From Acidovorax sp. CCYZU-2555 (GTDB lineage Bacteria > Pseudomonadota > Gammaproteobacteria > Burkholderiales > Burkholderiaceae_C): a DNA stretch of 64,000 nt. Positions 11,333 to 29,171 of the stretch are shown one piece after another. The stretch is taken from assembly GCF_018413525.1 (NCBI RefSeq), contig NZ_JAHCDD010000016.1, positions 1 through 64,000 on the forward strand. The letters are read 5' to 3'. The notes below the pieces were generated by a model. It had not been told where the DNA came from. It ran no database searches and was given only the letters and a program-made list of their open reading frames with translations. The translations under genes were made by a program, and so were the position numbers. Position 1 is the stretch's first letter; each line of letters opens with the position of its first letter.

Positions 11333-12404
11333 GGCGTGCGGCGCGCCGCTGCCGGTCGTCGGCGGCGGCCTGCAGCACCGCTTCGGCCAGCAGCGCAATC
11401 GAGCGCGGCGCGCAGCCTTCGGCGTCGTTGCTCACGGTGACATAGGCGCGCTGGCCCCGGCCCGTGATGCCCGCGATGGTGCGCGCCAGCAGCGCGCGCG
11501 TGTGCGGATCGGGCGAGCGAATTTCGCTGAACGGTGCGTGCGCTTTCTGCGCATCTTCATAGCCATAGGCGCCAAAACGCCGGTTCAGATTCCAGCGGCA
11601 GACCAGGGGCCCCGGCCACAGCGTGCGCAGCAAATCCAACTGGATTTCGATGGGCGGCATCTTGCCGTGCAACCCCAGGCAGAACGTGGTGCCGGTCGCG
11701 CGCAGCACGTCGGCGAAAGCCGGCACCAGCAGTTCGGGGTCGCGCACTTCGACGGCGACGATCACTTCGGGGTGCTGCGTGAGTTGTGATTGCACGCTGG
11801 CCAGCAATGCCTGCAGGCGCGCGAACAGCTCCGTCGGCCGCGTCATCCAGTCCCATGACAGGGGGCTGAGCTGGAACACCAGCACGCCCAGCTGGGCGCC
11901 CAGGCCTTCGAGCGTGGGTTGCACGAAGGCCGTCGCGGCCAGCGTGGGGTCCAGAAACGCGGGGTTGGCTTCGCGCCCGCGGCCGTCTTCGGCGCGCACC
12001 AGCGCGTCGGTGATCACGGACGGGCATTTGACGACAAAGCGGAAATCCGCGGGCGCCTGGCCCGCATAGGTGGCGTACTGGCTCACCGTGAGCGGGCGCC
12101 AGAAACTGCGGTCCACGCAGATCGTGCGCAGCAAAGGGTGCTGGGCATAGGCCGTGAGGCCCTTCTTGGCGAGCACGCTGGCGTCATAGGCGCCGTCCCA
12201 GACCAGGCCTTCCCAGCCGGGGTAGGACCAGGTGGACGCGCCCATGTGCAGCAGCGGGGGCAGGGCGCCGGCCATCTCGTCCATGACTGCCGGCCTGGGG
12301 GCGGGCTGAACGCCCGTGTTGCGCGCAGCGCGCGGCGCAGTGCCAGGCTTTTCAGGGCCATCGTCTTCAGGCGGCAGCGCTTCTTCAAATAGATCGTTTT
12401 GCAT
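11322..12404 (-). CDS. DUF72 (YecE-like) TIM-barrel protein
   Basis: Cytoplasmic protein of the DUF72 family, 360 residues, fold predicted as a TIM barrel with no established biochemical activity. The family entry motif is seen as MGASTWSYPGWEG near residue 53, followed by FRFVVKCP and the C-terminal RWNLNRRFGAYGYEDAQK and AYVTVSNDAEG blocks. About 50 residues precede the conserved core and are rich in Pro, Ala and Glu, so an internal start is possible. It runs convergently into the efflux channel gene with an 11-base overlap. Confidence 0.85.
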   Translation of the reverse strand: MQNDLFEEALPPEDDGPEKPGTAPRAARNTGVQPAPRPAVMDEMAGALPPLLHMGASTWSYPGWEGLVWDGAYDASVLAKKGLTAYAQHPLLRTICVDRSFWRPLTVSQYATYAGQAPADFRFVVKCPSVITDALVRAEDGRGREANPAFLDPTLAATAFVQPTLEGLGAQLGVLVFQLSPLSWDWMTRPTELFARLQALLASVQSQLTQHPEVIVAVEVRDPELLVPAFADVLRATGTTFCLGLHGKMPPIEIQLDLLRTLWPGPLVCRWNLNRRFGAYGYEDAQKAHAPFSEIRSPDPHTRALLARTIAGITGRGQRAYVTVSNDAEGCAPRSIALLAEAVLQAAADDRQRRAARLSG

Positions 12405-12520
12405 GGAATTGGAACGGTTTGTAAAACGATGTCACAAAAACCATGGCATGTTGTGCTGTGGGGTTGAGCTGCGGCCGCCGTTGCGGGAACTCCTGACATT
12501 CATTTCAAAAGTCGAAAAAT

Positions 12521-13549
12521 ATGAGTATCTCATCATTGCAACAGACGTTGACCGCCATTGGCTCCAACCAGGTGTCCGGCGAAAGCCTGTTGAAGCCCTT
12601 GGGGAAAACCTTGGGAAAGATACTCAACGTCATCTCGCTGGGGATCTATGGTGCCTACAAGCAAAGCGCTGCATCAGACATGAAAAATGATCTTCTTGAC
12701 CTGGGCAAGGCAATTATCAAATGGGATCCCGATTTTCCGGAAATTCCGGTTCAATTGATGCTCAACGGCCAGAAATATGAAATATCCGACGTGCCTCATG
12801 GAGGCGTGCGCTTGCATGAGTGCTCTGGAGGGGAAAGCACGGAGATTGATGGCGTCAGTCTTTCTTCGCTTAGGGATATGATTTTTTCCGAGCTGATGAA
12901 TCATCCTGATTTTTCGGACGCGATGGAAAGAAGAATATTTGAAGATTCCACGGTGCATGTGGATTTAAAAGGAATGAAGCAGGAGCGAGCCAACGCATGC
13001 GGGGAAGCCTGCAGGAATATGATTCTGGCCTACCATGGCATCGATTATGATCCTGCCACCAACTCGCGTGCAATTTTCGAAGGAAATACCAAGGACGAGT
13101 TGCTCGACCAGTTTCTGGACAATGGATTGATCGCCAGGCCTTTATTTGCGGGAGGAGTGAAGGCCTACACTTGCGAGCAAATTCAGGAAAGTTTACAGAA
13201 AGGGCCTTTGCTCTGCGAGTTGGAAGGGCACTACATCGTCGTGCATGGCGTCAACGCGCTGTTCGGTCGCATCGATGTGTATTGTCCATTGCTTGGTAAT
13301 CGATCTACCAGTCTGGAGGAGTTCAATGCGCATCTGGATTGGGATCAAGAATCCCACCAATCGCCATTGATGCAGTTTGAAAAAAAGAATATTTCGACCG
13401 AAGAGTCTTTGAGCGGATTCGGGCAAAGCAAGGATGCGGATTTCTCGCCCGGAATCATCGATAGATTGGGCGTTTTAGCTCTCACGAGCATCATTTCTAT
13501 TGGAAACAGCTGGCTCAAGGCTCCGGAAGATTTTTCCAGCATGAAATGA
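12521..13549 (+). CDS. Papain-like cysteine protease (C39/AvrRpt2-like), type III effector candidate
   Basis: 342 residues. A Ser-rich, Lys-poor N-terminus and an amphipathic region precede a papain-like core: KQERANACGEACRNMI places Q154 (oxyanion hole) and C160 (nucleophile) in the order seen in C39 and C70 peptidases, and LEGHYIVVHGVN supplies H237. The usual Asp of a DP motif after the His is not evident; the equivalent stretch reads YCPLLGNR. Base composition is clearly more A+T-rich than flanking genes. It lies beside a CesT-like chaperone and effector candidate. Family-level fold is fairly secure; secretion and target are inference. It could also be a secreted toxin or a bacteriocin-type processing protease. 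Confidence 0.6.
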   Translation: MSISSLQQTLTAIGSNQVSGESLLKPLGKTLGKILNVISLGIYGAYKQSAASDMKNDLLDLGKAIIKWDPDFPEIPVQLMLNGQKYEISDVPHGGVRLHECSGGESTEIDGVSLSSLRDMIFSELMNHPDFSDAMERRIFEDSTVHVDLKGMKQERANACGEACRNMILAYHGIDYDPATNSRAIFEGNTKDELLDQFLDNGLIARPLFAGGVKAYTCEQIQESLQKGPLLCELEGHYIVVHGVNALFGRIDVYCPLLGNRSTSLEEFNAHLDWDQESHQSPLMQFEKKNISTEESLSGFGQSKDADFSPGIIDRLGVLALTSIISIGNSWLKAPEDFSSMK

Positions 13550-13697
13550 TCAGAATGAGGTCTTGAGAAAAATCGCTCAGGTCCATGGGGAATTCCTGCG
13601 GCGGTTGGCGTAGCAACCTTGGGCAGCCGCACGGGCATCAGGCATTCATCCGGCGCAGGCGCATTCCAGGGCAATCGAAGCCGCTGGCTTGCGCTGG

Positions 13698-14330
13698 CTA
13701 TGGTCTGGCGGGAGCTTGTGGCCTGACAGGGTAGTCCGGCACATGCTTTTGTCCGCTCAGACGTTTTTCGAAGTCGGCCACTTTCTTCTCCTGTTCTTCT
13801 ACCTTGGCCTTCAATTCGGCTTCCTTGGGGTAACCCACTTTCAGCGCGGCAATCGAATCAGTATCGCTGATGTCTCTTGTGGATTTATTGAAGTTGATGC
13901 GGTTTTGTTCATGAATGAAATTCAATCCGTCTTTCAGCCTCGCAAGCTCGAATTGCATGGTTTTGAGTTCATGCCAGCTTCCCGGGGGGCGGGGGGTAAC
14001 GCTTGCGTCTCTGGCTTTTAATGGCTTATCGCTTTTGAGGAAGTCAGCTGCATTTTTGATGGCATTGGAAAAAACACCTCGCTTCAGTAAATGACTGATG
14101 GCGGATTGAAGCGCTGCTTTCAGTAGTTCTCCCATGTTTTTTGGCGGGAAAGGAAAAACCAACGCCGTCGACCTGCCCTTGAACAAATTATTTGCATTGA
14201 TCCTTTCTTTGCCGTTGTTTTTCGCGGACTCTTCACTTTTTTCGCTGCCGAACAGCGCCTTTGACATGCTTAAATTGGGAGTAAGCGATGTGGAGATACG
14301 TGAAATGTCGCTCATGGCATATCCATTCAT
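13698..14330 (-). CDS. Type III effector candidate coupled to a CesT-like chaperone
   Basis: No recognised family. The ATG at 14330 overlaps the chaperone stop codon (atga), so this start was chosen over the in-frame ATG at 14315 and over longer readings extending into the chaperone gene. About 210 residues: a Ser/Thr/Asn-rich N-terminus (MSDISRISTSLTPNLSMSK) typical of type III secretion signals, a middle segment with a hydrophobic helix (LLKAALQSAISHLL), and a C-terminal charged helix likely to be coiled coil (AELKAKVEEQEKKVADFEKR) ending in a Pro-rich tail. Composition is A+T-richer than the genome. Function as a secreted protein is inferred from the chaperone pairing. Confidence 0.5.
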   Translation of the reverse strand: MNGYAMSDISRISTSLTPNLSMSKALFGSEKSEESAKNNGKERINANNLFKGRSTALVFPFPPKNMGELLKAALQSAISHLLKRGVFSNAIKNAADFLKSDKPLKARDASVTPRPPGSWHELKTMQFELARLKDGLNFIHEQNRINFNKSTRDISDTDSIAALKVGYPKEAELKAKVEEQEKKVADFEKRLSGQKHVPDYPVRPQAPARP

Positions 14331-14779
14331 GCAAGGGTGGTATGGTCGAAGCTTGGAGGGGTAGCCATTGGCTGGGCCGAGCCCGGCACTGCATTGAATA
14401 GTTCGGTGCAGGCTTCGGCAGAATCCACAAAGCCTTTCACAACGGCTTCCCAATCGGATAGCTCCATGTTCGCTGTATCCACCAGCTGGGTCATGGCAAC
14501 CAGTCCGGTGCCGGCTTCGAGGCCGATGGTTCCTCCAGACGTCTTGTGGAAGAAATAATTGGCTTCAAGCAATCGCTTGTAGACTTCGGCCCCCGCGTCC
14601 TCCGGCACGACCCCCAGGCTACTATAGATAAGCACAGCGGATCCTTCTCCCACAGCTTCGATATTCAAATATATATCGTCGAAAGTCAGGCAACAATAGT
14701 CGTTCTCGTCCAGTGCGAGAGATTCCAGTCCGAGGTAATTTCCAAAATCAGTCAATAGGCGATTGATATCTTTGTGCAT
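14327..14779 (-). CDS. CesT/Tir-family type III secretion chaperone
   Basis: Small acidic cytoplasmic protein of 150 residues matching the CesT fold in length and pattern: LLTDFGNYLGLESLALDEND, YCCLTFDDIYLNIEA, an alternating strand around LIYSSLGVVPE, then LLEANYFFHKTSGGTIGLEA and a C-terminal amphipathic helix. Class I chaperones of this kind bind the N-terminal region of one or two effectors, keep them unfolded and guide them to the type III ATPase. Its gene overlaps the downstream effector candidate, the usual arrangement. No secretion apparatus genes are in this window. A purine-rich stretch (agaggaattcc) precedes the ATG. Confidence 0.75.
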   Translation of the reverse strand: MHKDINRLLTDFGNYLGLESLALDENDYCCLTFDDIYLNIEAVGEGSAVLIYSSLGVVPEDAGAEVYKRLLEANYFFHKTSGGTIGLEAGTGLVAMTQLVDTANMELSDWEAVVKGFVDSAEACTELFNAVPGSAQPMATPPSFDHTTLA

Positions 14780-15066
14780 TGGAATTCCTCTCTGAAAGTG
14801 TGTGCCCGGCAGAGGCCGGAAGATGAATAGGCCCTTTTGCTGTGTAACCCGCAGATATCAAAAGTTCCGGTTGCCACAGGGCGGCGGCCGCTGCGCAATA
14901 TGGACAACAGGGCTGCGAAAAGTCTCGCCAGCCTTGCGGGTGATCAATGACGCAAACACGCGGAAAAAGGTGTGTGCGCTGCTGGTTCATCGCTCTCATG
15001 TGAGTCTTCCCGCCTATGGCACACTGGCAGGCTTACCTTGATCCATCGCCGTGGGGCGAGTACCGC

Positions 15067-17471: not shown

Positions 17472-18707
17472 TCATTGCGCAATTTGCTGCAATTGCTGCT
17501 GCCAGAACGAACCCAGAAGATCGAACAGCGGGGTGGGTTGGCGCAGCATTTGCGGTGTATTGACGCCCGAGGCCATGGTGACGCCGGGGTGGCTGAGATC
17601 GGCATTGGCCAGTTGCTGCATCCAGGCGACGTTCAGGCTGCCATCGGGCATGGGCCGGGAAAAGATCAGCTCCACCATCTTGTGCGCCTCGGGGCTGCCG
17701 CGTTGTTCGGCGAGCCGGTAAAAGCGCACGGCCTCCGCAAAGTTCGCCGGCACGCCCTGGCCCCGGTGGTACATGCGCGCCATGCTGAGCGCCGCCTGAG
17801 CGGTGCCGCTCGCGGCGGGCATCACCGGCGCCGACATGGAAGGTGAATGCGCCTTCAACTCCTTCAGGTTATGGGCGGCAAAAGGGGAGCGCGAGGCCAC
17901 GCGGCGAAAGTAGGCGTCTGCCTGAGGCTGTTGCCGGTTGCTGAAGGCGATGATGCCCAGTTCGATGTTGGCGGGAATGTCCCCGGCCGCAGCGGCACGC
18001 TCGAGCAACTGGGATTCAGGTATGGGCGTGGCGGCGTTGCCTGTCTGGCCTGGCGTGGCGATCTGCAGCGGTTGGCGTTGCGCGGCTTGCAGCCAGGCCA
18101 GGTAATCCGCGCGCCCGGGATGCGCCGCGCGCAGGCGCTGAATGGCGCGTGTGGCGGTGGCGGGATCGCGCGGGCCGGCGCAGCCATCGATCGCACACCA
18201 GGCCAGACCGGCGAAAGCCCAGGGTTCGCGGCCTTGCCGGGCGGAGCGTTCAAACCACTGCAGGGCCAGCGGCCGGTCTATGCGCACGCCGGCGCCATGC
18301 AGGTGTATCAGTCCCAGCTGCCATGCGGCCTGCGCGGCCACCGCCGTGGAGCCGTAGCCGCTGGCGGGCGCCGCGGCGCGCTGCAGCTGCTGCAATTCGC
18401 GGTCCAGCGCCTTGTCACGGGAGTCGCGTGGCAGCAGCGGGCCCGCGGCCACCGGCGCGGCGTTCATGGCCGGCCTTTGCACCACCGGAGGGGCCTCGAT
18501 GGGATGCACCTCGGCATCCAAGGGTGCAATGCTTGAAGCATTGACCCGCGCACGCTCCATGCGCTGCGGTACGGGGGCAGCCATCTCCAGCTGGGCCACC
18601 TGGGTGACGCGGGCACGCGCCGCCACGGGCACGGTGGTGATCAGCATGCCCAGGCCTAGGGCTTCGATCACCACGGGCCAGCGGCTCCTGTGCAGGGCTT
18701 GGCGCAT
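17472..18707 (-). CDS. Exported Sel1-repeat protein of the CsgG-like operon
   Basis: About 411 residues. A basic N-terminus followed by a hydrophobic segment (VVIEALGLGMLITTVPVAARA) suggests a signal peptide or membrane anchor. Several Sel1/TPR-like units follow, e.g. AAWQLGLIHLHGAGVRIDRPL with ALQWFERSARQG, and AALSMARMYHRGQGVPANFAE with AVRFYRLAEQRGSPEA. Such solenoids act as protein-protein scaffolds, often in the periplasm. The ATG at 18707 shares a base with the stop codon of the CsgG-like gene (tgatg), implying coupled translation, so the product probably works with that lipoprotein. It is the last gene of the operon. Confidence 0.75.
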   Translation of the reverse strand: MRQALHRSRWPVVIEALGLGMLITTVPVAARARVTQVAQLEMAAPVPQRMERARVNASSIAPLDAEVHPIEAPPVVQRPAMNAAPVAAGPLLPRDSRDKALDRELQQLQRAAAPASGYGSTAVAAQAAWQLGLIHLHGAGVRIDRPLALQWFERSARQGREPWAFAGLAWCAIDGCAGPRDPATATRAIQRLRAAHPGRADYLAWLQAAQRQPLQIATPGQTGNAATPIPESQLLERAAAAGDIPANIELGIIAFSNRQQPQADAYFRRVASRSPFAAHNLKELKAHSPSMSAPVMPAASGTAQAALSMARMYHRGQGVPANFAEAVRFYRLAEQRGSPEAHKMVELIFSRPMPDGSLNVAWMQQLANADLSHPGVTMASGVNTPQMLRQPTPLFDLLGSFWQQQLQQIAQ

Positions 18708-20407
18708 CACTTGGCCTCGTTTTCGGCGGGGCCAGCGGCCTTGCGGCCGACCACGTTCCAGCGTATCACCTGTGCCACCGAGCCTTGCGGGCCCATTGCA
18801 TCCAGGAAGCGCTGGCGCAAGCCCGGCGCGCCTTGCAAGTCCTTGACGGCAGTCAATGCCGGACCCTGCAGTTCGGGCGGCAGCTTGGGCATGGCATCCT
18901 CATTCGTGGCAATGCACAGCGCGCTCTCCGTGCCTGGCTTGCCCGCATCCAGGATGAAGCCTGGATTGGCGCCCATCCAGTCGGGAATGCGTATGGCCTG
19001 ATCGGCCGCCACCAGCGTGTTGGTCTGCAACGCATTGGGCAGCAGGCGCGTCGCCGTTCCCGCCGCATCGACGTAATAGCAGTAGAGATGCGATGCCCTG
19101 GAGACGGTGGCGGAAAGGAAGATCTGGTCGCCTTCGCTGAACGCCGGGCGCAGGCCCGCGGGTTGTGGGTTCTCCAGTTGCATGTTGATGAACCACGGAG
19201 CGACAGCGGCGGTGGCGGGGACGGTCACGCGGCTGGTCGATGGCCCGCTGTTGTCCCAGCCTATCCGGGTAAGCGCCCCGTTGTCATCCAGGGCCACGAA
19301 GTTGCGCAGCGCGAATTCATAGGTGGAAAAGTCGATGATGCCGGTCACGATCAAGCCGGTGTCGGCCTGGAAGCGCGCAGTGGCCTGGCGCATGACGGGG
19401 TGGTTGGCGCCCAGGTCGCTTTGATCGCTGGACAGATACCCGCGGCTGATGAGCGAGGAGCGTACCAGCCGCAGCTGGCCTGAAGTGCCGCTTTCGTTGT
19501 ACCAGTCGCGCATCTGGCGCTGAAAATTGGGGTTGGTCTGGTTCAGCATCAGGCATTGCCAGTAAGGAACGCGTGCCCACTTGCCCACCAGCTCGATCAT
19601 GGCCAGATCGACCAGGGTGCGCAGTGCGCCACCCGTGCCCATGGCGTAGTCGCGCCCGACATTGAAGCGCACGCCGTAGGTGCCGATGCGGCCGGCCAGA
19701 TCGAGGCCTTGTCCGGCGCCGCCTATGACCACCTCATTGGCGGAGTCGAGGCCGGGAATGATGGTGCGCGTGCGGAAGTCGCCCAGATGCACTTCCAGGG
19801 CCACGACGGTGGCGGAGTTGCTGGCGCTGTAGCCCGCGTCCACGCGGTCGCTGGAGACGCCGGCGCTCTTGCGCTGGCTGGTGACGTTCTGGTCGACAAA
19901 GGCAATCGCGCCCGACACATAGAGTGCGGGGCGCTGCAGCTGCATCTGGTTGTTGTTGAGCAGGATCGTCGTCAGGTTCTGCACCGTGTCCTGGCGAGCG
20001 ATGTCGACTTCATAGTCGACGTAGCGAAACGCATTGCTCAGATGGGACATCTGCGACAGCGACGTCACCACCATGTCCTTGACTGCCACAGGCACCTTGC
20101 CGGAGAAATCCGGAAACTGCTTGCTGCTGATCAGCGTGGTCGGCAACTCGGCCGCGCGCAGCATATGATCCATGCAATTGAGCGACTCCGAGAAGCTGGA
20201 AATGGAACGCACCGGCCGCACCACGGGCCGGTTCAGAACCGTGGCCTGCGAGTGCACTCCGATGTCGCGTCGCGCATCCAGCTGGCCGCAGCCGCTGGCC
20301 AGCATCATGGCGGCCAGCGCGGCGAAGTGCCATCGTTTGCCGGCCCTGCTCCCAGACACCGGCTTTGCAGCCAGCAACTCCCTCGCAGCGTATGTCGTGT
20401 GTTCCAT
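18707..20407 (-). CDS. CsgG-domain outer-membrane lipoprotein with peptidoglycan-binding-like and DUF4384-like domains
   Basis: 566 residues. A signal ends in the lipobox LASGC (C40). Residues about 65-280 read as the CsgG/HfaB pore-forming fold: PALYVSGAIAFVDQNV, ATVVALEVHLGDFRTRTIIPG and GVRFNVGRDYAMGTGGALRTL correspond in order to the strands and trans-membrane hairpin regions of CsgG. Residues about 310-370 resemble a PG_binding_1 helical bundle (VMRQATARFQADTGLIVTG). Residues about 405-505 resemble DUF4384 (SEGDQIFLSATVSRASHLYCYY). E. coli CsgG is about 277 residues and has neither extra domain. A good ribosome site (agaggtc) precedes the start. Predicted role: secretion channel for the repeat protein encoded upstream. 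Domain calls are by eye. Confidence 0.75.
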   Translation of the reverse strand: MEHTTYAARELLAAKPVSGSRAGKRWHFAALAAMMLASGCGQLDARRDIGVHSQATVLNRPVVRPVRSISSFSESLNCMDHMLRAAELPTTLISSKQFPDFSGKVPVAVKDMVVTSLSQMSHLSNAFRYVDYEVDIARQDTVQNLTTILLNNNQMQLQRPALYVSGAIAFVDQNVTSQRKSAGVSSDRVDAGYSASNSATVVALEVHLGDFRTRTIIPGLDSANEVVIGGAGQGLDLAGRIGTYGVRFNVGRDYAMGTGGALRTLVDLAMIELVGKWARVPYWQCLMLNQTNPNFQRQMRDWYNESGTSGQLRLVRSSLISRGYLSSDQSDLGANHPVMRQATARFQADTGLIVTGIIDFSTYEFALRNFVALDDNGALTRIGWDNSGPSTSRVTVPATAAVAPWFINMQLENPQPAGLRPAFSEGDQIFLSATVSRASHLYCYYVDAAGTATRLLPNALQTNTLVAADQAIRIPDWMGANPGFILDAGKPGTESALCIATNEDAMPKLPPELQGPALTAVKDLQGAPGLRQRFLDAMGPQGSVAQVIRWNVVGRKAAGPAENEAK

Positions 20408-20479
20408 GATGACCTCTTATTACTGACCTTGGTGCAACCATGTTTTCGGGATATTTGGCGATGCGCGGCGCTGCCTGCT

Positions 20480-20887
20480 TCAATTGCAGATATTGATGAC
20501 GTCGCCGCGCAAGACCACCACTTGTTCGTTGTTCATTGTCTGTACGCCGCCCGGTGCCGACACGCTGCCTATCGATTGATAGCAAGTGGTTTGCGTGCCA
20601 TTGGTCTGGACGGATTGCACGACATCCTTTTCCGTCTTGATCTGGCCGAGATTCGGCGAGTAGGCCTTTGCCGTGTAGCGGCTGACCTTGGCAGCGATGT
20701 CATCGGAGAGATCTTTGCGGTACTGCACATTGCCGGAGCGCACAGCCGGTGCGGTGGGCAGTTGCAGGTAGGTCACGCGGCCGGTGATCGTCACCGGGTC
20801 CTCACCAGGGGCCGCAGTCGCTGGTGCCATGGGCGCCAGGAGGCACAGCAAAGCCCCGAGGTGCAGAGAGCGAAGAAAGTAAGTCAT
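20480..20887 (-). CDS. Small exported protein of the CsgG-like operon, unrecognised
   Basis: 135 residues with a clear Sec signal (basic start, LGALLCLLAPMAPATAA) and a mature domain of about 110 residues rich in Thr, Gln, Val and Ser with two cysteines (one in TTCYQSIG, one in the C-terminal NICN), compatible with one disulfide. No family recognised. It lies between the repeat protein and the CsgG-like gene with the same strong leader (aggaga ... tctcATG) as the repeat-protein gene. By position it could be a nucleator, chaperone or gating factor equivalent to CsgB, CsgE or CsgF, or a minor fibre subunit; this is inference. Confidence 0.6.
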   Translation of the reverse strand: MTYFLRSLHLGALLCLLAPMAPATAAPGEDPVTITGRVTYLQLPTAPAVRSGNVQYRKDLSDDIAAKVSRYTAKAYSPNLGQIKTEKDVVQSVQTNGTQTTCYQSIGSVSAPGGVQTMNNEQVVVLRGDVINICN

Positions 20888-20993
20888 GAGAAATTCTCCT
20901 GGCAGATACTTCAGCCAAGGCGCCGGATCGGCAAGCCGATCCGGTACGCCTCGACCGGCGCGTGCGACGCCGGTCGGTGCCGAGCCCAGTGGC

Positions 20994-21767
20994 TCAGCGC
21001 ATTGCGAAGGGGCCGCAGGCCGGACCTACGCAAACAGCTGGAGGAGGGTCGCAGGAATCGTTGGAGGCAATGTTCTGGATTGCCACCGCATGCGTGCCCC
21101 GGGCCAGGTTGGCGACCTGAGCGCCATTGAGAATGCTGGTGCTCTGGTTGGAGTAGCCCGTGATGGCGACCTTGCCATAGTTGGACGACAGGTTCTGGAT
21201 GGCTGCAGTGCTCTTGCCGTCCGCTTCGTTGCTGACCTTGGTGCCGTAGCCCGAGACACCGACGGACTGGACGCTGGTGCCGCTGATGCTGATGTCGCCC
21301 ATGTTGCTGGCGGCGTTCTGATAGGCCAGTGCCGCATCCCGGCAGTTGGATCCGTAGCAGCCGCTGCCGCTGTCGGCTTCATTGGTCATGGAGCCGTTGG
21401 TGATGTAGACCGTCTGTGTGGAACTGCCGGTGAGCCAGTAGCTCTTGTCGACGGTCACGTCGCCGACGTTGGACGCCAGGTTTTGCACGGCGACATCCCC
21501 GGCAGACCGGGCGTCGTTGGTGACATTCGCCTGGGTCAGGACGGCGGTCTGTGACGAAGTTCCCTTGATCTCGACGCCGCCCTTGTTGGATGCGATGTTC
21601 TGGTTCGCATAAGCGTAGTCTTTGGCAGTGTTTGACACGTTGCCGCCATTGACCGACGCGACTTGGACGGAAGTTCCACTGATCTTGAGTGTGGGTGTGC
21701 TGACGGGCTGTGTCGCCATGGCAGCCGTGGCGATAGCGCTGAGGGCAAAGAAGGCAAGCGATTTCAT
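20994..21767 (-). CDS. Secreted five-repeat protein, candidate functional amyloid or beta-solenoid subunit
   Basis: 257 residues: a Sec signal (MKSLAFFALSAIATAAMA), then five imperfect repeats of about 40 residues. Each repeat carries a hydrophobic-x-hydrophobic strand, GTS-x-Q, a Val/Asn turn (V-x-N-x-A), and ends in QN-x-ASN-x-G. The QN pairs fall at residues 56, 95, 150, 191 and 231. The third repeat has a longer insert with a Cys pair (C137, C142), and the tail is Cys/Pro-rich (CDPPPAVCVGPAC). The ladder of Asn and Gln at fixed spacing recalls curlin repeats, but unit length and motif differ. A strong leader (aggaga) precedes the ATG. It is the first gene of the operon, as expected for a major subunit. 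Confidence 0.7.
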   Translation of the reverse strand: MKSLAFFALSAIATAAMATQPVSTPTLKISGTSVQVASVNGGNVSNTAKDYAYANQNIASNKGGVEIKGTSSQTAVLTQANVTNDARSAGDVAVQNLASNVGDVTVDKSYWLTGSSTQTVYITNGSMTNEADSGSGCYGSNCRDAALAYQNAASNMGDISISGTSVQSVGVSGYGTKVSNEADGKSTAAIQNLSSNYGKVAITGYSNQSTSILNGAQVANLARGTHAVAIQNIASNDSCDPPPAVCVGPACGPFAMR

Positions 21768-22470
21768 GAGATTTCTCCTAGAAGAGCCAACAAATGCCGC
21801 GGTGAGATTGGTGTACTTCCATCTCCCCCCCCGGATCTAGACTTGGCCAGGGCTGCAAACCTTGGCTTTGTCGGGGTCCAGTTTCAGCGCTTGTTCGCAG
21901 CGCCTCAATCACCACAAATGCGACCGTTGAATAGCGGTTTTTACTATCCACCTTGGCCCACGAATAGCTAAATTCAGCACGGCTGTCGCATCGCTTGCTA
22001 TGAAAATAAAAGTTACAACGAGCCCGGATTATTTGAAACAAATTGAATCTTTTGAAAATTACAGTGAATAGTTGAACCTTTGTCATTTCTGCGCCAGCTG
22101 CATGCCTCTGATGCGGCTGTCCTGGGTGATGCCTCTCGGAACGACTTGGCCTGAGCTTGCCAGGGCCGCGCAAGCCTGCGTGCGCAGGGCTTGGCGCCGC
22201 TGGCGAACGCATACGCTTGGTTACCAGATGCTGTAGCTCGATGTGCACCAGCGCGTGATCGGAATATGTCTCTGCATATGGACCTGGCCACCGCGCCAGA
22301 TGCCTCTGGCGGCACGCTTCAATGCGGCGATGCGACGCGCCGTTCTTTCTGTGCAGTCTTGTTGCTCGGTCTGTCGCAAAGCTGTCTGGTTGGCCTGCGC
22401 GCATCCCGTGGTGGCGGAGCAGAATTGCGCACCATGGGGTAGCCTGCTGCAGACCGTTTCCCTGAGGTGA

Positions 22471-22497
22471 CAGGAGGAGGTCTAAGGGTTCCTCCTG
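22471..22497. promoter_or_regulatory. 8-bp inverted repeat hairpin upstream of the response regulator
   Basis: caggagga and tcctcctg form a perfect 8-bp inverted repeat around an 11-base loop, about 150 bases before the response-regulator start. No T-run follows, so an operator or an RNA hairpin is more likely than a terminator. Confidence 0.35.
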
Positions 22498-22501
22498 AAT
22501 T

Positions 22502-22516
22502 GTTACTAAAAGTAAC
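22502..22516. promoter_or_regulatory. Palindrome gttact-aaa-agtaac, candidate regulator-binding site
   Basis: A perfect 6-bp inverted repeat with a 3-base A-rich centre in an A+T-rich stretch, about 130 bases before the response-regulator gene. The size fits a dimeric LuxR/NarL-type helix-turn-helix protein, so autoregulation is possible. Confidence 0.35.
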
Positions 22517-22648
22517 TATTGAAATTAAATCTGAATTCTGAAAAAAGATGTAGAGACTTGTTTCATTATCTTTTGGACGGATGAATGAACGCGGCGGCTA
22601 GGCCTCCGCTGTCAGCAGCAATCGCTTGTCTCTGTCGAAGGAGTTCTT

Positions 22649-23464
22649 ATGATGCCCGTTGACGTTTCCCTGGCGCCGCCAGCTGCAAGCTCACTTGGTG
22701 CCTCAACTGCCGAGCCCCTGCAGTTGCATGCTTTTTCCGCCGCACCGGCGCGTCCGAGTGCCCGGGTCTGGCCGGATTTCCTCGTTGGGCAGCTGGACAA
22801 GCCGGTGCGCGTGCTGCTGATCGATGACGATGCGCACATCCGCATGGTGATCGCGCAGGAGCTGATGGCCGATGAACGCACCTTGCTGGTCGCACAAGCC
22901 AGCAGCATCAAGGAAGGGCGCAAGGCGATACGCCAGCATTCCTTCGATGTGATGCTGGTCGACATGCACCTGGGCGATGGCGAAGGGCTTGAGTTGATCG
23001 ACTTCATGAAGACCCACCATCCTTCGGCCGAAGCCGTGGTGGTGTCAATCATGGAAAGTGACGATCTCGTGCTGCGCGCGTTCGAGCTCGGCGCCACTGG
23101 CTACCTGGTCAAGAATTCCTGGTTCGGCAACTACCCGATGGCCGTGCTGCAGGTCGCCAACGGCGGGGCGTCGATCACGCCCAACCTCGCACGCCGTCTG
23201 CTGCAGCGTTTTGACAAAACGGCAGACAAGACTGCCGTCGAGGAAGAGCGCCGGCGCCAGCCCGACGAGGCCGAACGCCTTTCGGCGCGCGAGCGCGAAG
23301 TGCTGCGCATGGTCGCCGGGGGCTACACCAGCGTGGAAATCGGCGTGCGGCTGACCATCAGCAGCATGACCGTCAACACCCATATCAAGAACATCTACCG
23401 CAAGCTCCAGGTGCGTACACGTGCGCAGGCCGTGCGCTTTGCATCGCTGCGGGGGATGTTCTGA
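22649..23464 (+). CDS. NarL/FixJ-family response regulator with LuxR-type HTH
   Basis: DNA-binding response regulator of 271 residues. A 50-residue Ala/Pro-rich leader precedes the receiver domain: acidic pocket D59-D61 (LLIDDD), phospho-acceptor D105 (MLVDMHLGD) and K155 (GYLVKN). A linker leads to a C-terminal LuxR HTH (LSAREREVLRMVAGGYTSVEIG ... MTVNTHIKNIYRKL split around the turn). The ATG at 22649 follows aaggag. The cognate kinase starts 38 bases downstream. It is divergent from the CsgG-like operon, the position CsgD (also a LuxR-HTH protein) occupies in curli loci, so control of that operon is likely. Confidence 0.85.
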   Translation: MMPVDVSLAPPAASSLGASTAEPLQLHAFSAAPARPSARVWPDFLVGQLDKPVRVLLIDDDAHIRMVIAQELMADERTLLVAQASSIKEGRKAIRQHSFDVMLVDMHLGDGEGLELIDFMKTHHPSAEAVVVSIMESDDLVLRAFELGATGYLVKNSWFGNYPMAVLQVANGGASITPNLARRLLQRFDKTADKTAVEEERRRQPDEAERLSAREREVLRMVAGGYTSVEIGVRLTISSMTVNTHIKNIYRKLQVRTRAQAVRFASLRGMF

Positions 23465-23502
23465 TGTGCATGTGCTGAGGCCACGGCAATTGCGGGCAAA
23501 AC

Positions 23503-24360
23503 ATGTTCGGCCATCGACCCCTGCGCCGTGCCGACCTGGCCGCGCTGCTGGCGCTGGTGGCACTGCTTTTGTGGTGTCTTCCCTTTGGCCTGCTGTGCTG
23601 GCTGATGGGCGCTGGCCGATTCCAGCCAAACTCTGATCCCTGGTTTCAGGTTCTGCTGGGCCTGGCCCTGGCGAGCTGGCTGCTGGTCGGCGCCTGGCTG
23701 GGCTTGCAGGCCCGGCGTGCCTGGGTCTGGCGCCGCCGGCGCAACCCGCGGCCCTCGCGCGAGATCCAGCAGGAACGCCAGCGCATTGCACGTGCGCTGC
23801 ACGATGCCGTGGGCTCGCAACTGGTCAACGCGTCCATGCTGCTGGACACCCGCGACACACGCCAAGTCCAGCTGCATGCAGTGCTCGAGCATTGCCTGCT
23901 CGATCTGCGGCTGCTGGTAGACAGCATGGACGGTGACCAGAGCATGCTCACCGACCGGTTGGCCATTTTGCGCCACCGCCTGCAGCCGGTGCTGGAGCGC
24001 CGCGGCATTCACTGCCAGTGGGATGTTCCCGACAGCCACGCGCCGGGATTGTTCACGGGCGAGCCCGCGCAGCACATTGCCGCCATCGTGCAGGAGGCCT
24101 TGAGCAATATGCTGCAGCATGCGCAGGCCACGCAGCTCGAAGTCACGCTGGAGCAGCACGCGGAAGAATGGCATCTGCGCGTGCGCGACGATGGCGTGGG
24201 CATTCCCCCGGCGGCGGGCAAGGCGTCGGCAGGCAAAGGTCTGCAGGGCATGGCCCACCGCGCCGCGCGCGCCGGTGCACGTCTGGAGCGCGGCGCGGGA
24301 ATCAGCGGGCGGGGCGTGTGTGTCCATGTGTACTGGCCTGTGACCGCGGCGCAGCACTGA
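23503..24360 (+). CDS. NarX-like histidine kinase (HisKA_3 type)
   Basis: Membrane-bound sensor kinase of 285 residues. Two hydrophobic segments at about 12-35 and 48-70 enclose a very short periplasmic loop, so no extracellular ligand domain is present. The H-box has H100 in RIARALHDAVGSQL, the N-box N202 in EALSNMLQHA, and the ATP lid DDGVGIP at 229-235 with a later GKGLQGM. This is the HPK7/NarX class that pairs with NarL-type regulators, matching the preceding gene. The ribosome site is weak, so translation may be coupled to the regulator. The signal may be envelope state. Confidence 0.82.
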   Translation: MFGHRPLRRADLAALLALVALLLWCLPFGLLCWLMGAGRFQPNSDPWFQVLLGLALASWLLVGAWLGLQARRAWVWRRRRNPRPSREIQQERQRIARALHDAVGSQLVNASMLLDTRDTRQVQLHAVLEHCLLDLRLLVDSMDGDQSMLTDRLAILRHRLQPVLERRGIHCQWDVPDSHAPGLFTGEPAQHIAAIVQEALSNMLQHAQATQLEVTLEQHAEEWHLRVRDDGVGIPPAAGKASAGKGLQGMAHRAARAGARLERGAGISGRGVCVHVYWPVTAAQH

Positions 24361-27254: not shown

Positions 27255-27323
27255 CGTCGCTGCTGCTGCCAGCACGCGTTGCGTCACGGGAAGGGACGTG
27301 TTTTGTCTGCAAGGAGAACAGTT

Positions 27324-27860
27324 ATGCAACCCAAGATCAGCCATCTCGCAACGGCGCTGGTGGGGGCGGTCGCCGCATTGGCGTCGGTGTCCAGCATGGC
27401 GTGCACGCTCGCGCCAGCGAATCCGGTCAGGATCAAGCAGATGATGACCAATGAAGTCGCCTATCGGCTGGGAATGCGGCCCCAGCAGATTCCATTCGAT
27501 GCGATCACAGAGCCCCGGTTGATCACTCCGCTGGGTCTGGGCGCCGATTGCAGCGGGCTAGGCGCCTATCACCACACAGCGGGTTTCCGGATCTGGCAAC
27601 CAGGACGCCAGGGCCCTGGTTCCGGTCCTGGACCCAGGCCTGGGCCTGGGCCTGGGCCTGGCCCTGGCCCTGGCCCTGGCCCTGATCCCTGGCCCGGCAC
27701 CGGGCCCGACGGCGGCCCCCGGCCGGGCTGGCCGCCGGGCGGCGGACCCAGGCCATGGCCCGGTCAGGGCCGCCAATGCGTCTATGAAGGCGTGGTGGTC
27801 GTGCTGGGCTATGGCTATTCCAGCCCGGTGTCCGTGAACTTCGAGCGCCGCTGCCGTTGA
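27324..27860 (+). CDS. Exported Cys-rich protein, tandem family copy 1
   Basis: About 178 residues, no family recognised. A Sec signal ends at SSMA/C. The N-terminal block (APANPVRIKQMMTNEVAYRL ... LGLGADCSGLGAYHHTAGFR) and C-terminal block (RQCVYEGVVVVLGYGYSSPV ... RRC) are shared with the next two genes, with four conserved cysteines (mature first residue, DCSG, QC-x-YEG, terminal RC). Between them lies a Pro-Gly repeat linker encoded by a tandem hexamer. The ATG at 27324 follows aaggaga, the same leader as the other copies. Probably periplasmic or surface-exposed and disulfide-bonded; function unknown. Confidence 0.7.
   Translation: MQPKISHLATALVGAVAALASVSSMACTLAPANPVRIKQMMTNEVAYRLGMRPQQIPFDAITEPRLITPLGLGADCSGLGAYHHTAGFRIWQPGRQGPGSGPGPRPGPGPGPGPGPGPGPDPWPGTGPDGGPRPGWPPGGGPRPWPGQGRQCVYEGVVVVLGYGYSSPVSVNFERRCR
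27639..27680 (+). repeat. Tandem hexamer cctgg[g/c], seven units
   Basis: Three cctggg units followed by four cctggc units inside the first tandem paralogue, encoding Pro-Gly dipeptides. Because units are 6 bases, length changes would keep the reading frame and alter only linker length. Confidence 0.8.
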
Positions 27861-27932
27861 GCACGGCCAGGCCTGCGCCCGTGGCCGCGCTGCAAGCGGC
27901 CACTTCTTCTTCTTGATGGCAAAGGAGAACCC

Positions 27933-28412
27933 ATGCCCATGCATTTGCGTCGTCTAGCCACCGCCATGGTCGGCATCACCGCCTTCACGGCTTCGGCCGT
28001 CAGTTTGGCCTGTTCGCTCGTTCCTGCCGATCCGCAGCGCATCACGCAAATGATGCGCAAGGAGATCGCCCACCGCCTGGGCATCGCTCCCATGCGTATT
28101 CCGGCCAGCGCCATCTCGCCGCCGCAGTTGCACATGCCGTTTGCGCTGGGCGCGGATTGCAGTGGACTGGGCGCCTTTCACCATAGCGCGGGCTTTCGCT
28201 GGGAAGAGACTCTGCGTCCGGGCCCGGGGCCCATGCCCATACCGGAGCGGCCGTCGCTCACCGAGTCCCCCGCGGCCATCGAGCGCATGCCGCCCGGCAG
28301 CGCGGCACTGCGGCCCGCCGCGCGGCAATGCATCTATGAAGGTGTCGCGGTGGTGATGGGGTTCGATTACACCAGCCCCGTGGCCGTGCATTTCAGCCGC
28401 CGCTGTCGCTGA
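27933..28412 (+). CDS. Exported Cys-rich protein, tandem family copy 2
   Basis: 159 residues, paralogue of the genes on either side. Signal peptide, mature start at C after SLA, N-block VPADPQRITQMMRKEIAHRL ... LGADCSGLGAFHHSAGFR, C-block RQCIYEGVAVVMGFDYTSPV ... RRC. The linker is the shortest of the three and holds a Pro-rich start (RPGPGPMPIPERP). aaaggaga precedes the ATG at 27933; a second ATG two codons on is possible. Gaps to neighbours are about 72 and 33 bases, so the three may form one transcript. Confidence 0.7.
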   Translation: MPMHLRRLATAMVGITAFTASAVSLACSLVPADPQRITQMMRKEIAHRLGIAPMRIPASAISPPQLHMPFALGADCSGLGAFHHSAGFRWEETLRPGPGPMPIPERPSLTESPAAIERMPPGSAALRPAARQCIYEGVAVVMGFDYTSPVAVHFSRRCR

Positions 28413-28445
28413 GGGCCGGGCAACGTTGTCTGCAAGGAGAATCGC

Positions 28446-29171
28446 GTGCAAACTTCAAGAAAACCGCTGGTGATCGCCGTGCTGGGAAGCGCTGCCGTGA
28501 CGGTGCCGGCATGCTGCCTGGCCTGCGCCCTGGCGCCCGCCGACCCTTTGCTGCTCAAGCAAATGATGGCCAAGGAAATCGCGTTTCGGCTGGCGATCGA
28601 TGCCGAGCAGATTTCCTTGAGCGACATAACGCCGCCCAAACTGCACCGACCATTGGAACTGGGCGCCGATTGCAGCGGGCGCGCGGCCTTGCATCACAGT
28701 TCGGGCTTCAGAATTGTCGTGGCGCAGCAGCAGCATGCCTTTGCCACCATGGGCAAACCGCATACGGCAGCGGGCGCCGGTGCCCGGTATCGAGGTCGTG
28801 TGTCTTCGGGTTTCTATTCGGGCCGGGACTGGGCCGGAGTGCGGCGCAACTTCTGGCGTGCGCCCAAGGCGCAGCGAACGCCCGATGCGAACTATTCGGG
28901 TTATGAACGCTGGCCGCAGTACCCTATGGAGAAGGATGTCGCGCCCGCCAATCCGGCCATGCAGCCGGCGCAGCGCTGGCGGCAGTATCCGCACGAGTCG
29001 CAGGTCACGTGGCAAGAAACGCCGCAGCCTCCCGTGCGTTGGTCAACCATGGGTGTGGCGCCCGCCAAGCCTGCCGTGCAGGGCCTGTGCCGCTATGAGG
29101 GCGTGGCCGTGGTGCTGGGCTATGACGCTTCCAGTCCGGTGGCGGTGAACTTCCAGCAGCACTGCGATTGA
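28446..29171 (+). CDS. Exported Cys-rich protein, tandem family copy 3
   Basis: 241 residues from a GTG start preceded by aaggaga. Signal peptide, then LAPADPLLLKQMMAKEIAFR ... LGADCSGRAALHHSSGFR and a C-block LCRYEGVAVVLGYDASSPVA ending QHC. The linker is the longest (about 110 residues), Tyr/Trp/Arg/Gln-rich rather than Pro-Gly. The four cysteines match copies 1 and 2. Conserved ends with a freely varying middle suggest the ends pack into one disulfide-linked domain and the linker is an exposed loop. Function unknown. Confidence 0.7.
   Translation: MQTSRKPLVIAVLGSAAVTVPACCLACALAPADPLLLKQMMAKEIAFRLAIDAEQISLSDITPPKLHRPLELGADCSGRAALHHSSGFRIVVAQQQHAFATMGKPHTAAGAGARYRGRVSSGFYSGRDWAGVRRNFWRAPKAQRTPDANYSGYERWPQYPMEKDVAPANPAMQPAQRWRQYPHESQVTWQETPQPPVRWSTMGVAPAKPAVQGLCRYEGVAVVLGYDASSPVAVNFQQHCD

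Follow-up and report, generated by a model that had tools for sequence, protein, structure and literature searches.

Does a secretion locus with a curli-like pore and no recognisable curlin export a fibre subunit of its own? This question is raised by six genes at positions 17472 to 24360 of the window, which is the whole stretch of 64,000 nucleotides analysed here (Acidovorax sp. CCYZU-2555, contig NZ_JAHCDD010000016.1, positions 1 to 64,000). Four of them form an operon on the minus strand, encoding a tandem-repeat protein (A), a small protein (B), a lipoprotein (C), and a Sel1-repeat protein (D), all with signal-peptide-like N-termini as judged by eye; a response regulator and a histidine kinase are encoded divergently. 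Comamonas and related bacteria share this conserved gene set, which appears to combine an outer-membrane pore of the curli type with a distinct kind of repetitive beta-solenoid protein. Protein A probably serves as a surface fibre or adhesin and escapes standard curli searches.

Repeat protein A and the absence of recognisable curli components

Protein A (20994..21767, minus strand, 257 amino acids) is a candidate fibre or adhesin subunit according to its open reading frame (ORF) and repeat analysis. Its N/Q-rich tandem repeats have five anchors, at residues 54, 93, 148, 189, and 229, with a unit of mostly 38-41 residues and a strand-motif consensus that starts with N and ends with Q. Structure prediction of A alone gave a beta-solenoid, and a Foldseek search with this model returned no match at E ≤ 0.001. 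The start and end points within the repeat are nearly identical across all A proteins, suggesting that subunits could stack end to end as a fibre.

A preliminary description of the locus had reported no recognisable curli subunits, and the comparisons with curlin agreed with it. The curlin repeat model (Pfam PF07012) matched 0/36 A proteins, the motif QxGxxN was observed twice against 4.0 times in shuffles, and hhalign of A with three curlins, an insensitive three-sequence profile, was null. These results rule out A as a recognisable curlin.

Protein B (20480..20887, minus strand, 135 amino acids), a putatively exported candidate accessory protein, had no Pfam or NCBIfam match at E ≤ 1. Its C-terminal motif resembles VV.RGD.(V/I)N.C, and C102, G128, and C134 did not vary across 15 selected rows, some of them loci of other families. 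No match of B to CsgF or CsgE was obtained by hhalign with insensitive three-sequence profiles, leaving its identity with either protein unsupported.

The divergent gene at 22649..23464 (plus strand; the gene caller favours the alternative start 22805) encodes a receiver domain with Asp105 (ORF numbering) and a LuxR-type helix-turn-helix (HTH). It is followed by a short histidine kinase (23503..24360, plus strand) with two hydrophobic segments, a His97 box, and a Pfam HATPase domain; HisKA_3 scored 23.9 bits, just below the cut-off of 24. The divergent regulator-kinase pair thus stands as first described, and the likening of the regulator to CsgD holds for its orientation and LuxR-type HTH only. 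The NCBIfam CsgD model gave 48.4 bits against a cut-off of 250, covering the HTH part alone, and the protein has the receiver Asp and usually lies beside a kinase, which rules out CsgD. To judge by its sequence, the regulator is a NarL-type response regulator. By the same kind of comparison the locus departs from the curli family on two counts, having neither a recognisable curlin nor a CsgD.

A strongly diverged curli (csg) system, with A derived from curlin by repeat lengthening and B from CsgE or CsgF, would nevertheless account for the divergent LuxR-HTH regulator, for the CsgG-like predicted fold of C described below, and for the QxGxxN repeats of some distant relatives. It would also fit the N...Q strand motif of A, as reported for curlin (PMC10192328; for this and the other papers cited, statements refer to the available excerpts). 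However, the PF07012 and QxGxxN results for A speak against such an origin, as do, within the limits of their insensitive profiles, the null comparisons of A, of B, and of the distant QxGxxN repeats with curli proteins; we regard it as unlikely.

Lipoprotein C and its relation to CsgG

Protein C (18707..20407, minus strand, 566 amino acids) has an ASGC lipobox whose Cys40 was invariant, in a lipobox-like context, in 40/40 aligned homologues. A predicted CsgG-like domain (residues about 68-289) precedes two domains found by Pfam, PG_binding_1 (311-364) and DUF4384 (423-503). The Pfam CsgG model (PF03783) matched 0/25 C proteins at E ≤ 0.1 and gave weak sub-threshold matches in 4/10 distant relatives; as a control, the same model matched in Caulobacter vibrioides. 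No match resulted when C was aligned directly with three curli CsgGs by hhalign, or when PDB sequences were searched with the C profile (E ≤ 1). The sequence link between C and CsgG was obtained only through tier-2 relatives, not by a direct match.

The predicted structure points to CsgG more clearly. In comparison with PDB structures, CsgG scored clearly above PelC, with 172-206 versus 124-128 residues aligned, and the model agrees with a CsgG fold that has membrane hairpins: long strands are predicted at residues 162-186, 189-210, and 215-237, where the CsgG hairpins would be. The stretch from Asp100 to Met112 is 13 residues long in 40/40 homologues, versus about 25 residues in three curli CsgGs. 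The earlier view of C as CsgG-like is thus borne out by the predicted fold, the PDB comparison, and the chain of relatives, but not by a direct sequence match; a CsgG-like fold is supported at the level of structure prediction.

Alternatively, C might form a periplasmic lipoprotein ring at the outer membrane in the style of PelC, FlgT, or GNA1162, with no pore and with some other route for the export or anchoring of A, or with A retained in the envelope. An alpha/beta core is indeed common to C, PelC, GNA1162, and the CsgG-DUF4810-DUF799 lipoproteins, but the alignments with these proteins are shorter and their Z scores lower; the higher score of CsgG and the strands at the expected hairpin sites also speak against a ring without a pore, which we regard as unlikely. 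The only Pfam CsgG match in the genome itself lies on C64 (about 116832-117329, L001), in a three-lipoprotein operon that is not a curli locus and that we take to represent the CsgG-DUF4810-DUF799 lipoprotein families.

Distribution and conservation of the gene set

A homologue of C was found at E ≤ 0.001 in 43/200 genomes of the window's family, and at E ≤ 1e-100 in 24 of these 43, its own genome included; the other member of the genus among the 200 (G128) had none. The C profile matched in 16/300 genomes drawn from the order and 21/398 from the phylum, draws that overlap each other and the family draw. The closest homologues among named genomes were those of Comamonas jiangduensis (81% identical) and a metagenome-assembled genome labelled Proteobacteria bacterium (84%).

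The profiles of A, B, and D each matched in 24/24 loci from 23 other family genomes. A second set of 80 loci, kept from 139 relatives found in a scan of named genomes, shares some genomes with the first; its counts for each gene cover only loci where the contig gives room. A script found A upstream in 73/74 of these loci, and in the remaining one (L142) the reading frame of C is over-long and A lies directly upstream. B and D were each present in 77/77 loci and the divergent regulator in 56/65, with a kinase beside it in 49/56 (47/56 under a narrower rule). The gene order recurs in this set, which, taken with the 24/24 profile matches, places the gene set above chance. The four genes therefore do occur together in relatives, as the preliminary description implied, in genera including Comamonas, Delftia, Acidovorax, and Polaromonas.

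The genome itself has one A-type locus, the sole other match being weak (E 0.062). Two separate copies of the operon were seen in Ottowia beijingensis (L102 and L146) and in genome G113 (L053 and L054). A third CsgG-like setting (L067, L068, and L069) was seen in family genomes that have the A-D operon as well; it comprises an ORF of 1092-1184 amino acids, a small exported protein, a CsgG-like protein of about 390 amino acids, a Sel1-like protein, and an OmpA-like protein.

Beyond the family the repeat protein may change. Among 36 distant or wider-draw loci, five (L180-L184), which belong to three further families in the phylum, had A-profile matches (E ≤ 1e-5) upstream of C. Weak B-profile matches (E ≤ 0.01) were found in 8/36, including one (L199) from the same genus as the window. 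Other distant loci encode repeats such as QNQSGLANSQ..(I/V)GNA with QxGxxN, and in the proteins beside the distant C homologues L193-L197, L057, and L063 this motif lies within a longer repeat. PF07012 matched 0/9 distant repeat proteins scanned; the QxGxxN repeat family had no hhalign match to curlins with the insensitive three-sequence curli profile, and its alignment with A was confined to the signal peptides and initial residues. Since many of the 36 loci had neither A nor B by profile, a repeat protein that varies beside an unchanging pore and B is a suggestive picture only.

Gene organization and other features of the window

All six ORFs lie at the positions first described, and a gene caller based on codon usage recovered each of them, in some cases from a shorter start. 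D (17472..18710, minus strand, 412 amino acids), a candidate periplasmic scaffold, matches Pfam Sel1 (E=1.9e-14) and overlaps C by 4 bp; B and C are 72 bp apart. The 106-bp gap between A and B (20888..20993, minus strand) contains two strong predicted hairpins (fold -56.6 kcal/mol), and its fold beats its shuffles (z ≤ -2; 30 mononucleotide shuffles per gap, dinucleotides not kept) in 39/51 of the 80 loci, those with a gap of 40-200 bp. These hairpins perhaps fit a higher expression of A than of the genes behind it. The region upstream of A, aligned in four close relatives, had no promoter-like block common to all four. Genes for AI-2E/GAF and Tex proteins adjoin the locus and were excluded from the module because they are conserved beside only some of the 80 loci.

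Elsewhere, the region 12300-15000 has lower GC (0.535 in 12001-14000) and few called genes, and the ORF at 14327-14779 (minus strand, 150 amino acids) is a CesT-type secretion chaperone (Pfam CesT, E=1.4e-21). Three successive look-alike, exported-looking ORFs lie at 27279-29171 (27279-27860, 27933-28412, and 28470-29171); two are Pro/Gly-rich or share 'ACxLxPADPxxxxQMM' starts, and none had a Pfam match at E ≤ 0.1.

Proposed model and comparison with known systems

We consider it fairly probable that the locus encodes an outer-membrane secretion system of the CsgG type with a substrate specific to it. In this model, A, B, C, and D would be exported to the periplasm, where C would be lipid-anchored at the outer membrane and its N-terminal ~290 residues would assemble into a CsgG-like oligomeric pore. 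The PG_binding_1 and DUF4384 domains would remain periplasmic, where they may anchor the pore to the cell wall. A would pass C unfolded and, once outside, adopt a beta-solenoid fold with about 40 residues per turn; its subunits could stack into a fibre or, alternatively, A may act as a surface adhesin. B, a small and probably disulphide-bonded accessory, would assist as gate, chaperone, or nucleator; D would serve as a Sel1 scaffold in the periplasm, and the regulator-kinase pair would control the operon. A separate lineage of surface-fibre or adhesin assembly with its own subunit type, as first proposed, is supported by the CsgG-like predicted pore, the non-curlin subunit, and the co-occurring genes. 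Gene content, order, and conservation are observed here and the pore fold and solenoid are predicted, while we infer the secretion, the fibre formation, the roles of B and D, and the regulation.

A wider reading, for which we see somewhat less than an even chance, is a separate CsgG-type secretion family, defined by the CsgG-PG_binding-DUF4384 pore and a two-Cys B, in which one tandem-repeat solenoid has repeatedly replaced another as the exported subunit. The Comamonadaceae subunit, with ~40 residues per turn, would build non-curli surface fibres, and other families would use other repeats, some with QxGxxN.

According to Dueholm and colleagues, two curli systems occur in Burkholderiales, and CsgG is part of a larger family with paralogues (PMC3521004). 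In our survey, curlin repeats were found in 3/200 family genomes (G008, G067, and G084), none of them among the 43 with a C homologue. Given these counts, export of A through C followed by polymerisation would mean that curli-like fibre systems are more widespread and varied than curlin or CsgG sequence models show. Pore ancestry would then be separable from subunit fold, pore scaffolds with built-in peptidoglycan-binding domains would exist, and surface adhesion in Comamonas, Delftia, Acidovorax, and Polaromonas would gain a testable basis. Literature searches, limited to open-access papers, listed none that describes this gene set in its title or the start of its abstract, which is weak evidence of novelty.

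The locus resembles curli in its CsgG-like predicted pore, its exported N/Q-rich repeat protein predicted as a beta-solenoid, and its divergent LuxR-HTH regulator. It differs in the repeat unit of A, mostly 38-41 residues compared with about 23 for curlin (PMC10192328), in the lack of a curlin repeat in A, in the extra domains and short Asp100-Met112 stretch of C, and in having a Sel1 protein, a kinase paired with the regulator, and no CsgE or CsgF recognised by the insensitive profiles.

HfaABD of Caulobacter, compared by description, likewise combines a CsgG-like protein (HfaB) with two exported partners, HfaA being curlin-like, in a complex that anchors polysaccharide (PMC6707917). A holdfast anchor of this kind, with exported proteins that form no fibre themselves, is very unlikely here, as the Pfam CsgG model that matches in Caulobacter misses C and no polysaccharide genes stood out beside the operon in the window gene list. 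MafA of the Neisseria MafA/MafB system, also compared by description, is likened to CsgG by its authors and exports a non-curlin substrate, which is a toxin, unlike the fibre or adhesin proposed for A (PMC7738311).
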